Shown one piece after another: positions 11,928 to 17,807 of a stretch of DNA of 44,914 nt. This DNA is from Actinomycetes bacterium (GTDB lineage: Bacteria; Actinomycetota; Acidimicrobiia; Acidimicrobiales; Acidimicrobiaceae). The stretch spans positions 1 through 44,914 of the forward strand of contig JAJYDM010000008.1 in NCBI GenBank assembly GCA_021777475.1, written 5' to 3'. The stretch's first letter is position 1; every line of letters starts with the position of its first letter. The position numbers and the translations under genes were made by a program. The notes below the pieces were generated by a model, which saw only the letters and a list, made by a program, of their open reading frames with translations, was not told the DNA's origin and made no database searches.

Positions 11928-13067
11928 CTACCCGACCTGGTGAAGAGCCCTGTCAACCTTGTTCAATAGCTCATATCCGGTTTCTGTGGCAATCACGATA
12001 TCCTCAATCCTGGCGCCGTAAAGATTTGGGATGTAGATCCCAGGCTCAATGGAAAACGTGTTGCCCGCCCCTATTTCGTCCGTATTTCCCGCAACTATGT
12101 AAGGCTCCTCGTGCTCCTCGATTCCGATACCATGACCGGTTCGGTGAATAAAATATTGGCCGTAGCCGAACTCTTCAATATACGACCTTCCCAGTTCATC
12201 CACGCTTTCACAACTGATTCCGGCACGAACAGACTCGACTTGGCGGAGTTGAGCTGTCTTCAAGATTGCATAAAGCTCAAGAAACCTGTCTGGCATTTCT
12301 CCCGTAACCACCGTCCTAGTGATATCCGAACAGTACCCGACCGATCCATCAATTCTGAACTCGCCGCCAAAATCAACCACAATTGCCTCATCGTGGCCTA
12401 TCACGCGCTTCCCGGGTTCATGGTGAGGGGAAGCTGAATGAGGACCGGCACCCACAATTGCAAAGTTGACCTTCTGAAGCCCTTCTGCAATGAGCCGCTC
12501 GGAGATTTCCATTGAAATCCCTATCTCGCTTCGACCGATGAAACTCACTTCGCCGTCGATAATCGCCTGAGCAACTCTGTCCGTTCGCTCGGCTGCCTCA
12601 GCTAACATTGCTTGTTCTACGGGGTCCTTAACACTCCTAAGACTATTGGTTACTCTTGATGCGGGTGAAAATTTTGCACCGCACTTGGTCTGTAGGGAAA
12701 GTAGCGATACCGCCCAAGTCCGGTCAGAGATGCCCACCTTTCCACAACCTTCAAGTGCGCCAGCGACAATCTCGAACGGATCTTCATATTCGTGCCAGGG
12801 ACGTACTCTGAAAAGGTCTCCATGTAGCGAGACTCTGGGCTCTTCCAAGGCTGGAACAACCAGTACGGGCTGCTCATTCTTTCTGACCACCAGTGCCGTG
12901 AGCCTTTCAAGGGGCATGGCCTGGTAGCCAATTAGCCAAGGAAGGTCAGCGCCCAAAGACAGGACTAGGGCATCGTTTTCCACGACATCCATCTGCTCAA
13001 TTACCCGCTTCAACCTTGAAAAATAGGCTTTCGAAAACTCCGCGGCGTCAATCGTCAGTCTGTTCAT
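11928..13067 (-). CDS. M24 family metallopeptidase (Xaa-Pro aminopeptidase/dipeptidase type)
   Basis: A 379-residue protein with an N-terminal creatinase-like domain (~1-140) and a pita-bread catalytic domain. Metal ligands are visible: Asp in VVDFGGEF, Asp in YCSDITRTV, His in HRTGHGIGIEEHEEPY, Glu in FSIEPGIY and Glu in ARIEDIV. His in PHHEPGKR fits the substrate-binding position. It would cleave peptides with proline in the second position; whether it is an aminopeptidase or a dipeptidase is not decidable. It lies 43 bases downstream of lipBA on the same strand and is probably the last gene of the E3-E2-lipBA transcript. Confidence 0.87.
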   Translation of the reverse strand: MNRLTIDAAEFSKAYFSRLKRVIEQMDVVENDALVLSLGADLPWLIGYQAMPLERLTALVVRKNEQPVLVVPALEEPRVSLHGDLFRVRPWHEYEDPFEIVAGALEGCGKVGISDRTWAVSLLSLQTKCGAKFSPASRVTNSLRSVKDPVEQAMLAEAAERTDRVAQAIIDGEVSFIGRSEIGISMEISERLIAEGLQKVNFAIVGAGPHSASPHHEPGKRVIGHDEAIVVDFGGEFRIDGSVGYCSDITRTVVTGEMPDRFLELYAILKTAQLRQVESVRAGISCESVDELGRSYIEEFGYGQYFIHRTGHGIGIEEHEEPYIVAGNTDEIGAGNTFSIEPGIYIPNLYGARIEDIVIATETGYELLNKVDRALHQVG

Positions 13068-13110: not shown

Positions 13111-14787
13111 TCAAACCCTAAGAAGGGGAACGGAACTGGCAATCGCTCCAAATGAGGACTTGGCGTGGTACGAAGACCGCACCATTGGAGATGCCTCCAC
13201 ATGGCCAATGCCCAACCCTTCACCCACCTGGGCCAGCTCATGGAACTCTTCGGGAGTGATCCACCTAGCAACTGGAAAGTGGTTCACGGTTGGCCGAAGA
13301 TACTGACCAATGGTCACAATGTCACAGCCAATGGACGCCAAATCGCGGAGCGAACTAGTAAGCTCCTCCTTGGTTTCACCCATTCCCGCAATCAAGGAAG
13401 ACTTCGTGACAAGTCCTGCCTCTTTGGCTCTGGCCAGGACCGAAAGTGACCTGGCGTAGGATGCCGACGGACGCACTACGTACTGGAGTCTTGCCACGGT
13501 CTCAAGATTGTGGTCGAGCACATCAGGACGCGCATCGAACACCTTATTAAGACTGTCGCTGTCCCCCTTGCAGTCTGAGATCAAGACTTCAACACCAGTT
13601 CCTGGCGATAGACGGCGTATTTCCCTTATCGTCGCCGCAAATGCCCCTGCACCCCCATCGGAAAGGTCATCTCTCGCGACAGCAGTCACGACCGCAAACG
13701 CGAGGTTCATCTCCTTAACCGCCTCTGCCACCCTCGTTGGCTCCATCGGATCGAGAGGGGCGGGATGATTGGTCCGTACAAGGCAAAACGAGCATGCACG
13801 GGTACAGTCTTCGCCGTTGATCATGAACGTGGCGGTTCCATCTGCCCAACATTCGAAAATATTTGGGCAACCTGCCTCTTCGCACACCGTGGACAGGGAA
13901 AACTTACGCATGGTCCGTTTCACACCACGGTACTCAGGACCCATATTGGCTTTTGCCCGCAGCCAGTCCGGTTTACGTGAACCTATGGTCAGGAAGTGTT
14001 CCGCATTGAGTCCTGCCCTGTCCATTCTCTTTGAGAGACTACTTCTGTAGTTCTCACCAACCGGTGGCGTTTGCACGACTACTCGTCCAGGTTCTAGACC
14101 GCGATCCGACATCTGGCCGGGCCTTTCGTAGCGATGGAAACCGACGCTTTGGTGGAAAAATGTTCCGTCATCGAATGCCATAGCTCCGAGTCGGACAAAG
14201 GCATCAACAACTTCCTCCATGGAAACACTGATCCCCTCGTTTTCAAGTGAGGTCACCGGCTTGTCCGCGATCCCGCATGGAACGATGTGGCTGAACATTG
14301 AGAGATCTGTTTTCACATTGAGGGCAAAGCCATGCATCGATCTATTGCGGGTGATCTTGACACCAATGGCACAGATCTTCCTTGGATTGTCACCCCGTGG
14401 ATCAACCCAGACACCTGGATAGCCATCCAACCTACCTGCATTGACTAGCCCCAATTCGGCAAGGACGTCAATTATCAGCTTCTCGAGCCGATAAACATAC
14501 TTGGGCGTTCGGTCGGCTTCATCTGGAACGTTCAAAATAGGGTAACCCACCAGCTGACCAGGTCCGTGATAAGTGACATCCCCGCCCCTGTCAGCTCGAA
14601 TCATCTCGGCACCCACGTTTACCGGATCAACCAGAATATTCTTCAAGTCTGCCCTAACACCTAGCGTGTAAACACTTGGATGCTCAAGCAAAAGAAAATA
14701 CTGCTCTAAGGTATTTGCAAATAATGCTCGCTGTACCGCTTGTGCGTCGTTGTACCACACTCGCCCGAGCCATCGAGTCTGAAGCAT
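13111..14787 (-). CDS. lipBA: fused octanoyltransferase-lipoyl synthase (LipB-LipA)
   Basis: One 558-residue reading frame carries two enzymes. Residues ~1-230 are LipB: RGGDVTYHGPGQLVGYPI, the catalytic Lys in ICAIGVKI, and the catalytic Cys in IVPCGI. After a linker of ~35 residues comes LipA (~265-558): the auxiliary cluster motif CEEAGCPNIFEC (C-x4-C-x5-C), the radical-SAM motif CTRACSFC (C-x3-C-x2-C) and the C-terminal RSSYHA with the conserved Ser. The protein would transfer octanoyl from acyl carrier protein to lipoyl domains and insert two sulfurs. GGGAGG lies five bases before the ATG at 14787. The gene follows the E2 gene, whose lipoyl domain is a substrate. No stop or frameshift separates the two halves. 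Confidence 0.95.
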   Translation of the reverse strand: MLQTRWLGRVWYNDAQAVQRALFANTLEQYFLLLEHPSVYTLGVRADLKNILVDPVNVGAEMIRADRGGDVTYHGPGQLVGYPILNVPDEADRTPKYVYRLEKLIIDVLAELGLVNAGRLDGYPGVWVDPRGDNPRKICAIGVKITRNRSMHGFALNVKTDLSMFSHIVPCGIADKPVTSLENEGISVSMEEVVDAFVRLGAMAFDDGTFFHQSVGFHRYERPGQMSDRGLEPGRVVVQTPPVGENYRSSLSKRMDRAGLNAEHFLTIGSRKPDWLRAKANMGPEYRGVKRTMRKFSLSTVCEEAGCPNIFECWADGTATFMINGEDCTRACSFCLVRTNHPAPLDPMEPTRVAEAVKEMNLAFAVVTAVARDDLSDGGAGAFAATIREIRRLSPGTGVEVLISDCKGDSDSLNKVFDARPDVLDHNLETVARLQYVVRPSASYARSLSVLARAKEAGLVTKSSLIAGMGETKEELTSSLRDLASIGCDIVTIGQYLRPTVNHFPVARWITPEEFHELAQVGEGLGIGHVEASPMVRSSYHAKSSFGAIASSVPLLRV

Positions 14788-14867
14788 TTTGGCCTCCCAA
14801 TATGGGCGATTGCCACGTTGATGGCAACAAAAGATCAACTAGATTCATTGGACGATGAACCACCGGC

Positions 14868-14904
14868 ATGATGGCCCATCATCCAGCTTTATCTTCCTAA
14901 AGCT
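14868..14904 (-). promoter_or_regulatory. two adjacent inverted repeats between E2 and lipBA
   Basis: AGCTTTA/TAAAGCT (14885-14904, 6-base loop) straddles the E2 stop codon. ATGATGG/CCATCAT (14868-14882, 1-base centre) follows at once. Neither is followed by a T run, so they could be mRNA-stability or processing hairpins, or an operator, rather than a terminator. Confidence 0.4.
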
Positions 14905-16396
14905 CCTGCGCCCAGTTCCAGGTCTCGATAATTTCCTTCATCCGGCCTAGAAACGCTGCGGCATAAGCTCCGTCAATTACCCGATGGTCAAACGACAATG
15001 CCATGATCCCCACAGAGTGGATTGCAATCGACTCAGACCCGTCCGTCTGAGTCACAACAACTGGTTTTCGCTTTACCCCATCCGTAGAAAGTATTGCCAC
15101 CTGCGGCTGGTTGATTATGGAAACAGTCATGAAAGTTCCGAAGGGACCTGGGTTAGTGATAGTAAAGGTACCACCCGCAATGTCGTCAGCGCTCAATCTC
15201 TTGGACCGTGCTCTGTCCGCAAGGTCCCTGATATCTCGTGCAAGCCCTCTCAGCCGCTTCGTGTCTGCGCCATGTATGACAGGAGCTATAAGGCCCTCCT
15301 GATCTAGATCAACTGCTATCGAAAGGTTGAGGTCTTTGTGTACAATCAGCGCATTCTCACCGACAGATGCATTCAGGTGAGGGAACGTTCTCATTGCCTC
15401 TACCGTCGCACGGGCAATGAATGGCAAATACGTGAGTGAGAACCCCTCCTCGCCGCGGAACTGATCCCTCACAGCCTTCCTAACCCGCTCAACTGCTTCA
15501 AAGTCAATCTCAATAGACACCAGAGCGTGGGGTGAAGTCGCCTTTGAGCGGACCATGTGCTCGGCGGTACGACGCCTAATGTTCGTAAACGGAATGACTT
15601 CATCCCTCGCCCCCGCAATACTCGTCTCTACCGACAGACTTCGCGTTGCTGGTGACTGAACCCTGGAGGCCGACGTCGTTACCACCGACTGCGCATCTGG
15701 AATCGCCATTGGCGGTGGCTGAACAGCGGTTACAGCTGTAGCCGGTGCCTCAACCTCTGGACGCACGTCGCCACCACCCGATGCCCTCCTGTCGAGGAAT
15801 GACAAAACGTCAGATCTAGTTATCCGACCTCCAGCGCCGGTGCCAACGATATCAGCAGGATCGATTTCATTGTCATGAATGAGCTTTCGGACTACCGGGG
15901 ACAGCAGCAAAATTCCGTCGTCTACAGCTGGCGCTGAAGTCGGGGCAGGAGCGGTCGCACTCGCAGCAGCTGGCGCTGGAGTCGGGGCAGGAGCGGGCGC
16001 ACTCGCAGCAGCTGGCGCTGGAGTCGGGGCAGGAGCGGGTGCACTCGCAGCAGCTGGCGCTGGAGTCGGGGCAGGAGCGGGCGCACTCGCAGCAGCTGGC
16101 GCTGGAGTCGGGGCAGGAGCGGGCGCACTCGCAGCAGCTGGCGCTGGAGTCGGTACCTCGGCGCCTGAAGAAATGACCGCAAGAACCGTTCCGACATCAA
16201 CGGTCTCTCCCTCCTCGACAAGAATTTGAGTTAGGACGCCAGCGGCTGACGACGGAACCTCTGAATCCACTTTGTCAGTGGAAACCTCGAAAATAATCTC
16301 ATCCTGTGCAACTGAATCGCCAATTTTCTTGAGCCATTTGGTAACTGTTCCTTCAGTAACAGTTTCGCCAAGTTGTGGCATCGTAATCTCAGCCAA
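14897..16396 (-). CDS. sucB: 2-oxoacid dehydrogenase E2, dihydrolipoamide acyltransferase
   Basis: A 499-residue E2. The lipoyl domain (1-80) has the modified Lys42 in STDKVDSE. A Pro/Ala linker (82-151) is built of five copies of a 14-residue unit. The peripheral-subunit-binding domain (~163-200) reads SPVVRKLIHDNEIDPADI, and the catalytic domain (~265-499) has FDHRVIDGAYAAAFL with the active-site His. It moves acyl groups to CoA in a pyruvate, 2-oxoglutarate or branched-chain complex; the substrate is not clear from sequence, and the sucB symbol follows the actinobacterial DlaT/SucB naming. The start is TTG at 16396, overlapping the E3 stop by 8 bases, with GAAGGGG upstream. A single lipoyl domain is seen. 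Confidence 0.92.
   Translation of the reverse strand: MAEITMPQLGETVTEGTVTKWLKKIGDSVAQDEIIFEVSTDKVDSEVPSSAAGVLTQILVEEGETVDVGTVLAVISSGAEVPTPAPAAASAPAPAPTPAPAAASAPAPAPTPAPAAASAPAPAPTPAPAAASAPAPAPTPAPAAASATAPAPTSAPAVDDGILLLSPVVRKLIHDNEIDPADIVGTGAGGRITRSDVLSFLDRRASGGGDVRPEVEAPATAVTAVQPPPMAIPDAQSVVTTSASRVQSPATRSLSVETSIAGARDEVIPFTNIRRRTAEHMVRSKATSPHALVSIEIDFEAVERVRKAVRDQFRGEEGFSLTYLPFIARATVEAMRTFPHLNASVGENALIVHKDLNLSIAVDLDQEGLIAPVIHGADTKRLRGLARDIRDLADRARSKRLSADDIAGGTFTITNPGPFGTFMTVSIINQPQVAILSTDGVKRKPVVVTQTDGSESIAIHSVGIMALSFDHRVIDGAYAAAFLGRMKEIIETWNWAQEL
15926..16153 (-). repeat. 42-bp tandem repeat encoding the E2 linker
   Basis: About five and a half near-identical 42-bp units (core ctggagtcggggcaggagcg on the plus strand), differing at only a few bases. 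They encode the Pro/Ala unit PTPAPAAASAPAPA. Near-identity at DNA level, including third positions, points to recent unit duplication. Confidence 0.95.
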
Positions 16397-17807
16397 CGTG
16401 AAGTCCCCTTCCTGTCAATGCCATAACGGTCTCACCAAACGCCTCCGAGAGTGTCGGGTGAGGTTGAATGAACTGGGATACCTCTTCAGGAGTGGCTTCC
16501 CAGTTAACTGCAAGATAACCCTGGCCGAGTTGTTCCGTAACCCAGGGACCAACCATGTGGACGCCAAGGATACGACCGGCCGAACCGTCCGGCAGCCTCT
16601 CTGCCAATACCTTCACAAGTCCATCAGTCTCGCCTAGAATTCGGGCTCGTGAATTGCCGCCAAATGGATCCTTTTTCACAATCACGTCGATACCCGCCGT
16701 CCTCGCAGCTTCTTCAGTGAGTCCTGCAAAAGCAACCTCCGGGTGACAGTAGATGCACCATGGAACTTTTGAGTAATCGACCGGAGCCACCTGTTCTCCA
16801 AGAATGTGCTTGATGGCAACGATCGCCTCCGCAAAACCAATGTGCGCCAGCTGGGCAGTTGCCACCAGGTCGCCAACTGCGTAAACGCCCTGTTCGGTTG
16901 TTCTCATGTATTGGTCAACTGTAACAAACCCGCGCTGGTCTACCTCCACCTCGGCGCCAGCGCTAAGAAGACCTTCCGAGTTGGGACGCCTTCCAACTGA
17001 AACTATTACCACCTCCACCGAGACTGACTGCTGATCGCCAAAATGGACCGTGGTACCGATGGAATCCGCATGCGGGGTATGTCCAGAGACGGCAACCCCG
17101 GTGTGGACATTGATCCCTCTTCGGCGGAACGACTTCAGAACCACCTCGGCCACATCTTTGTCAACTCCTGTAAGTATCTGCGGGAGTGCCTCCAGAATTG
17201 TCACTTTGGCACCGAGATCGGCCATCATTGACGCAAACTCGCAACCTATGGCCCCACCTCCAATAACGGCAACACTCGCCGGCAGAGAATCCAATGACAA
17301 AACTTCGTCCGATGTCATCACTATTTTTCCATCGATATCGAAACCAGGTATAGACCTTGGCACGGATCCGGCAGCAAGGATGACGTTCTGACCCTCGAGC
17401 ACGCGACCGTCGGAAACTTCGACACGGCCACTACCAATGTACTTTGCAGCTCCCTCAATTACCTCGATCTTCCGACCCTTCATCAGCCCAGACAGACCCT
17501 TCCAAAGTTGGTCAACTACCTTTTGTTTTCGAGCCTGAGAAACGGAGAAATCAATTCTTGGGTCCGCTACCGTAATTCCAAATTCTGATGCTCCGGTGAC
17601 TGCCCTAAATGCGGCGGCAGTCTCAAGAAATTCCTTTGCTGGCACACAGCCCCTATGCAGACAAGTACCACCAACCTTTTCCTTTTCGACAACCGCAACG
17701 GATAATCCAGCGGAGGCACCATATAGCGCTGCTGCATAACCACCAGGCCCACCACCGATTACCAGTACGTCATATATATCAGACGTCGGACTCACCTCCA
17801 AGATCAT
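16389..17807 (-). CDS. lpd: dihydrolipoyl dehydrogenase (E3)
   Basis: A 472-residue flavoprotein with FAD motif GGGPGG (~18-23), the redox-active disulfide in GGTCLHRGCVPAK, an NAD-binding VIGGGAIGCEF near 183, the FAD motif YAVGDLVA near 313, and the C-terminal HPHPTLSEAFGE with the catalytic His-Glu pair. All E3 features are intact, in contrast to the LpdA-like protein at 272-1630. It reoxidises dihydrolipoamide on the E2 encoded immediately downstream, which overlaps it by 8 bases, so translation is probably coupled. No clear Shine-Dalgarno sequence precedes the ATG at 17807. This is the first gene of the right-to-left lipoate operon. Confidence 0.95.
   Translation of the reverse strand: MILEVSPTSDIYDVLVIGGGPGGYAAALYGASAGLSVAVVEKEKVGGTCLHRGCVPAKEFLETAAAFRAVTGASEFGITVADPRIDFSVSQARKQKVVDQLWKGLSGLMKGRKIEVIEGAAKYIGSGRVEVSDGRVLEGQNVILAAGSVPRSIPGFDIDGKIVMTSDEVLSLDSLPASVAVIGGGAIGCEFASMMADLGAKVTILEALPQILTGVDKDVAEVVLKSFRRRGINVHTGVAVSGHTPHADSIGTTVHFGDQQSVSVEVVIVSVGRRPNSEGLLSAGAEVEVDQRGFVTVDQYMRTTEQGVYAVGDLVATAQLAHIGFAEAIVAIKHILGEQVAPVDYSKVPWCIYCHPEVAFAGLTEEAARTAGIDVIVKKDPFGGNSRARILGETDGLVKVLAERLPDGSAGRILGVHMVGPWVTEQLGQGYLAVNWEATPEEVSQFIQPHPTLSEAFGETVMALTGRGLHVG

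Follow-up and report, generated by a model that had tools for sequence, protein, structure and literature searches.

A LipB-LipA fusion protein shared across the class Acidimicrobiia, probably a bifunctional lipoylation enzyme

LipB and LipA, which act at consecutive steps of lipoic acid synthesis and are usually separate proteins, are encoded as one continuous polypeptide in the DNA studied here, and of the 363 genomes of the class Acidimicrobiia that were inspected, 353 carry the same LipB-LipA junction in a single open frame. We estimate at roughly 87% the probability that this fusion is a bifunctional lipoylation enzyme joining LipB octanoyl transfer to LipA sulfur insertion. It is very likely that both chemistries run in one polypeptide, the chemistry being assigned from the families to which the halves belong. 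The LipB half would accept octanoyl from octanoyl-ACP, hold it as a thioester on Cys171, and transfer it to the lipoyl-domain lysine of E2 subunits and GcvH; the LipA half would insert two sulfurs, taken from an auxiliary [4Fe-4S] cluster, by means of two SAM-derived radicals. The probable advantage is that both activities are produced stoichiometrically and co-localised, next to dehydrogenase genes.

The preliminary description of the window (the whole 44,914-nucleotide stretch analysed) had proposed that one frame carries LipB and LipA together, and this was borne out. Both are full-length within a single minus-strand frame of 558 codons that runs from an ATG at 14787 to 13111, and both halves score above the cut-offs of curated models. 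A TTG start would lengthen the protein to 575 aa; the ATG has the sequence GGGAGG 5 nt upstream. The remaining two minus-strand frames over the gene contain 25 and 32 stops, of which 4 and 3, respectively, fall in the linker, and at the window's GC content a frame of 558 codons would stay open by chance with p ~2e-11. Features of the locus and of related genes elsewhere in the genome are collected in Table 1.

Table 1. Positions of the fusion gene, its parts and associated genes (window coordinates unless a locus is named)
Feature	Position	Strand	Basis
lipBA fusion gene, putative octanoyltransferase-lipoyl synthase	13111..14787	minus	ORF, 558 aa + stop; Pfam; NCBIfam
LipB (LplA-B_cat) domain, residues 12-198	14194..14754	minus	Pfam; 1w66 fold match
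Linker, residues 199-269	13981..14193	minus	AlphaFold2; column counts, 119 non-redundant rows
LipA half, residues 270-545 (LIAS_N, Radical_SAM)	13153..13980	minus	Pfam; NCBIfam; 5exk fold match
GGGAGG, ribosome-binding-like site, 5 nt ahead of ATG	14793..14798	minus	sequence
E2 acyltransferase of 2-oxoacid dehydrogenase, one lipoyl domain (PF00364)	14897..16396	minus	Pfam
E3 dihydrolipoyl dehydrogenase-type flavoprotein	16389..17807	minus	Pfam
M24 (Xaa-Pro) peptidase, 43 nt downstream of fusion	11928-13067	minus	Pfam
E1 alpha, E1 beta, small lipoyl-domain protein	L210:463-2741, own genome contig C8	minus	
Second LplA-B_cat protein, 241 aa	L208:928-1650, own genome contig C65	plus	Pfam, 52 bits

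Pfam placed LplA-B_cat at residues 12-198, LIAS_N at 270-307 and Radical_SAM at 326-482 of the fusion protein. Two LipB models were exceeded, TIGR00214 (144.9 bits; cut-off 83.55) and NF010925 (189.3 bits; cut-off 155), while NF010921, NF010922 and NF010923 matched below their own cut-offs. The LipA model TIGR00510 was exceeded as well (338.1 bits; cut-off 310.25), as were NF004019 and NF009544. One known family, NF053790 (LplA_LipA_fuse), likewise joins, by its name, an acyl-attaching enzyme to LipA (lipoate-protein ligase/lipoyl synthase). The fusion protein scored 350.2 bits against that model's cut-off of 800, and the match was limited to residues 270-544, the C-terminal LipA part, whereas its N-terminal half passes LipB models. 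Judged by these model scores, the LplA-LipA fusion of NCBIfam and the LipB-LipA fusion are different.

Fused frames were confirmed by script in 135 loci, with L171, which duplicates the window, left out; these include the same contigs from two collections and reduce to 119 non-redundant loci at 90%. The catalytic residues named in the preliminary description are present in the window and are kept in all 135 loci wherever those residues are covered. They are K137 and C171, which we take to be the LipB Cys/Lys dyad; C302, C307 and C313 (CX4CX5C), presumably the ligands of the LipA auxiliary cluster; C328, C332 and C335 (CX3CX2C), presumably those of the radical-SAM cluster; and an RSSY motif at 537-540, with serines S538 and S539, which we assume to be that of LipA. 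All ten residues, the two serines included, were invariant among 43 aligned fused proteins. In the full set, C171 and all six LipA cluster cysteines were found in 135/135 loci, K137 in 134 with one gap, and S538 and S539 in 129, the other 6 being gaps; Y540 of the RSSY motif varies (Y 119, H 8, F 2).

These counts bear on the idea that just one half is catalytic, the other serving as a docking or substrate-binding module while another enzyme covers its step. A candidate for that other enzyme exists in the LplA-B_cat protein of contig C65 (~241 aa), a possible alternative acyltransferase or ligase; it scored 26 bits against LplAB (cut-off 550), and its sequence makes it possibly acyltransferase- or ligase-like. 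Fast-evolving lineages also offer this idea some room, LipB identity to the window being 38-40% in genomes G041 and G037. Yet both active sites are intact in every fused locus wherever covered, G037 included, and a search of the window's own genome with the fusion protein at E 0.001 returned a single match and no further one. We therefore consider a one-sided enzyme very improbable and retain the bifunctional reading.

Conservation of the fusion was assessed in a census of the class, in which 364 of 395 genomes matched the fusion and 363 were inspected (G077 was left out). Fused calls were read from match coverage and open-frame length, and where a match contained one stop, frames of at least 540 aa were taken as ending at the gene's own stop. 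By batch, the 353 fused junctions were distributed as 150/150, 33/33, 33/37, 77/80 and 60/63. Some class genomes gave two matches, and split genes were considered and rejected for these: the re-search returned one open frame in 33/33 and 33/37, the match being split in two because the variable linker cuts the alignment. The expectation that the fusion would recur across the Acidimicrobiia thus became a class-wide trait. As for the possibility, raised at the outset, that in close relatives the two genes lie side by side but apart, the relatives proved to be fused and separate neighbours were found in other classes; no separate adjacent lipB/lipA pair replacing the fusion was seen among the inspected class genomes.

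Of the ten genomes not scored as fused, six (G103, G234, G200, G143, G377 and G381) gave partial matches that we take to be contig-edge cuts. In G215 a frameshift interrupts the fused gene within the LipA N-terminus, and the G376 match, at 25%, is spurious. In G191 a contig begins with a piece of LipA that, by eye, retains the LipB C-terminal helix, and a solo LipB lies elsewhere; G092 has a solo LipB with no LipA match. It counts against our reading that some class members have a solo LipB (G092 and G191) or an extra separate pair (G052). The extra pair (L202, contig C83) is a divergent lipB-lipA pair in separate overlapping frames that occurs beside a normal fusion, and is ascribed to lateral transfer or contamination. 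When TIGR00510 was run on 20 of the 31 unmatched class genomes, 0/20 scored above the cut-off and 3 gave weak matches.

A second sample came from a scan of a contig collection, in which at least 597 stretches matched the pattern and at least 592 encode a relative. Among the best 80 loci, which were analysed, 49 were fused in one open frame and 31 were separate, some of the genomes being also in the class census. The fused loci carry the titles Acidimicrobiia, Acidimicrobiales, Acidimicrobiaceae, Microthrix and loosely named actinobacterial MAGs, 14 of the 49 being titled 'Actinomycetes bacterium', and one is titled Acidobacteria. Loose titles are unreliable: the 'Actinomycetes bacterium' locus L005 has the same linker as L096, from class genome G344. 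The fusion linker of the locus titled Acidobacteria (L037) resembles those of loci titled Acidimicrobiaceae, and the Acidobacteria label of that MAG is probably wrong. The 31 separate loci came from Nocardia, Mycobacterium, Streptomyces, Cellulomonas, Sanguibacter and other Actinomycetes.

An artefact, with a sequencing or assembly error having joined adjacent genes, was considered; the window's genome is a draft of 139 contigs, and in the Actinomycetes loci from the contig-collection scan lipB and lipA are usually neighbours. An indel at ~14000-14100 had been singled out as the possible cause. This doubt is removed because the junction is conserved in 353/363 inspected class genomes; it also recurs in 49 of the best 80 loci, with some genomes shared between the two samples. 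Error is refuted as a general explanation, and the probability that we leave to it is negligible.

In none of the loci checked outside the class were the two genes fused. Of 296 genomes in a search of the phylum, 269 lay outside the class and 223 of those 269 matched; among the matches listed, none covered both halves without stops. From these, 20 loci were picked mainly for long LipA frames: 0/20 were fused, and LipB was present in the stretch of 14. Together with the 31 separate loci above, 0/51 loci outside the class were fused, and LipB was near LipA in 45/51. The lipB-lipA pairs of Actinomycetes such as Nocardia, Streptomyces and Cellulomonas have the same gene order as the fusion, and in the 31 loci the two genes share one frame with 1-3 stops between them, an arrangement that the scan may favour. 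Unlike the fusion, they are separate genes in 31/31.

To place the origin of the fusion, 36 fused rows were picked from the 135 loci for quick maximum-likelihood trees with midpoint rooting. In the LipA tree the 36 rows fell on one side of a single branch with moderate support (SH-aLRT 90). The LipB tree needed two changes: the solo LipB of G092 and G191 lay inside the fused group, and one fused row, L168, fell on the side of the separate loci. The pattern fits one ancestral fusion of neighbouring genes, with the solo LipB copies coming later. On these sequence comparisons, a single ancestral fusion probably arose near the base of the Acidimicrobiia and was retained thereafter; it would have come about through one loss of the stop that separated adjacent lipB and lipA genes. 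The solo LipB genes L201 (G092) and L206 (G191) come from two genomes of the same family within the class and have similar-looking downstream sequence. Since both nest in the fused LipB group, they may be copies that lost the LipA half.

In the AlphaFold2 model the linker takes in the last part of a LipB helix plus a strand, then a disordered segment (219-244) and a conserved helix (247-257). Its length ranges from 26 to 177 aa with a median of 58 among the 135 fused loci, none of which has an in-frame linker stop, while the other two frames are stopped in 80 and 84 loci. A conserved R-L-x-x-A-G-V motif occupies residues 254-260, the window itself having M255 and L260; in 119 rows the column counts were R254 96, L255 86, A258 87, G259 90 and V260 78. 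Unfused LipA is preceded by a similar stretch (consensus GRKMLRxEARN), and we therefore take the linker helix motif to be an inherited LipA N-terminal helix rather than a new part.

The linker is also where the fused frame might give two products, as a polyprotein or through an internal start, with LipB and LipA acting separately after cleavage or re-initiation. The partial disorder and variable length of the linker would suit such a scheme, and so would the in-frame ATGs at residues 203, 226 and 255 of the window linker; some start codon with an SD-like motif lies inside the linker in 42/135 fused loci. An internal start for LipA was nevertheless rejected, as linker Met is not conserved: any Met occurs in 82/135 loci and none in 53/135. 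In the window, ATG203 has GGAG only 2 nt away and falls within the predicted last LipB helix (190-205). Separate products would, moreover, leave unexplained why the junction stays open in 353/363 genomes. We regard this scheme as unlikely, and a single polypeptide with two active sites as the better account.

How the two halves are arranged was addressed by structure prediction. From a 43-row alignment, AlphaFold2 returned a fusion model with mean pLDDT 90.0 and pTM 0.91, disordered at residues 219-244. A read-through control, made from the 31 unfused Actinomycetes pairs with stops changed to glycine, gave pLDDT 82.5 and pTM 0.55; its alignment was shallower and less diverse (31 rows at 62-73% identity to the first row, versus 43 rows at 50-61%). 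Because of the shallower alignment and the less confident domains, the contrast of 0.91 with 0.55 is only suggestive and may be partly technical. From the pTM of 0.91 we infer a defined orientation of the halves, and the model suggests that LipB and LipA are probably docked in a fixed way and not loosely tethered. Coevolution between the halves, sought by mean-field DCA on 135 rows (effective 101), did not cluster beyond chance, 66/500 permutations being as high; 10 of the top 50 pairs were inter-domain, versus 49% of all pairs. No interface is therefore named.

Among the best 50 PDB matches no chain spanned both halves, TMq being at most 0.51. The LipA half folds like M. tuberculosis LipA (5EXI/5EXJ/5EXK; 5exk TMt 0.91-0.95, 51-52% identity) and the LipB half like M. 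tuberculosis LipB (1W66; TMt 0.85, 44% identity); these are separate PDB chains, and roughly half of the fusion is covered by the best match. M. tuberculosis LipA and human LIAS can be aligned across the LipA half. LIAS (8UGO/8V0J, with H-protein; TMt about 0.91 to the fusion) takes part in the same two-step chemistry, including the LIPT2 step, but LIAS and LIPT2 are separate proteins, unlike the fusion. In the accessible text of one study the partner that LIAS is described as binding is H-protein and not LIPT2 (PMC12246082).

The docked model (pTM 0.91) makes direct hand-over of an octanoylated lipoyl domain, a conjecture of the preliminary description, more plausible. A stronger proposal is that the fusion forms a rigid two-site machine passing the octanoylated lipoyl domain from LipB to LipA unreleased, that this is absent from unfused actinobacterial pairs, and that it is an ancestral trait defining the Acidimicrobiia. 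We hold that proposal to be doubtful.

The genes around the fusion include one for a probable substrate. The order is E3, E2, fusion, with all three on the minus strand, E3 and E2 overlapping by 8 nt and 109 nt separating E2 from the fusion. The preliminary description had put the fusion in an operon with E2 and E3. The shared strand and the upstream E2 held up, a same-strand upstream E2 homologue being present in 45 of the 49 fused loci (E3 in 41; several others begin near a contig end), while a single operon for the three genes is only likely. Upstream E2 and E3 homologues were found in 9 and 4, respectively, of the 31 separate loci. The E2 of the window is the probable substrate and operon neighbour of the fusion. 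Its Ala/Pro-rich linker, between the lipoyl domain and the E3-binding domain, is encoded by a tandem array of a 42-bp unit (window 15925-16153; 5.5 copies, 97% matches), and the likeness of the copies suggests a recent length change. On the other side, an M24 peptidase homologue follows within ~2 kb on the same strand in 10/49 fused loci.

Elsewhere, the window's genome encodes GcvH, and on contig C8 the E1 genes stand beside a free-standing lipoyl domain and are pyruvate-dehydrogenase-type; the small protein there has little beyond one lipoyl domain, with its own stop and away from the contig edge. Candidate lipoylation substrates in the genome are thus E2, the free lipoyl-domain protein of C8, and GcvH. 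Two NifU-domain proteins are encoded as well and could help to rebuild the LipA auxiliary cluster.

Automatic naming in UniProt may already label such proteins as multifunctional fusion proteins. Full-text searches of open-licence PMC, a body that leaves most subscription papers outside its scope, turned up no evident description of a LipB-LipA fusion. In their accessible parts, a GTDB-wide survey of lipoate assembly names other fusions and not LipB-LipA (PMC10332631), a survey of lipoate enzymes discusses enzyme fusion generally without a LipB-LipA fusion (PMC3917532), and neither PMC6067878 nor PMC12246082 names one.

What is at issue here is the physical coupling of octanoyl transfer and sulfur insertion in lipoate assembly, a pathway that serves central carbon metabolism. 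Pipelines that name one half only may mis-annotate the fusion, which also makes a simple marker gene for the class. It occurs naturally and class-wide, its predicted model is confidently docked, and both the arrangement of the two enzymes and lipoyl-domain hand-over could be studied in this one protein.
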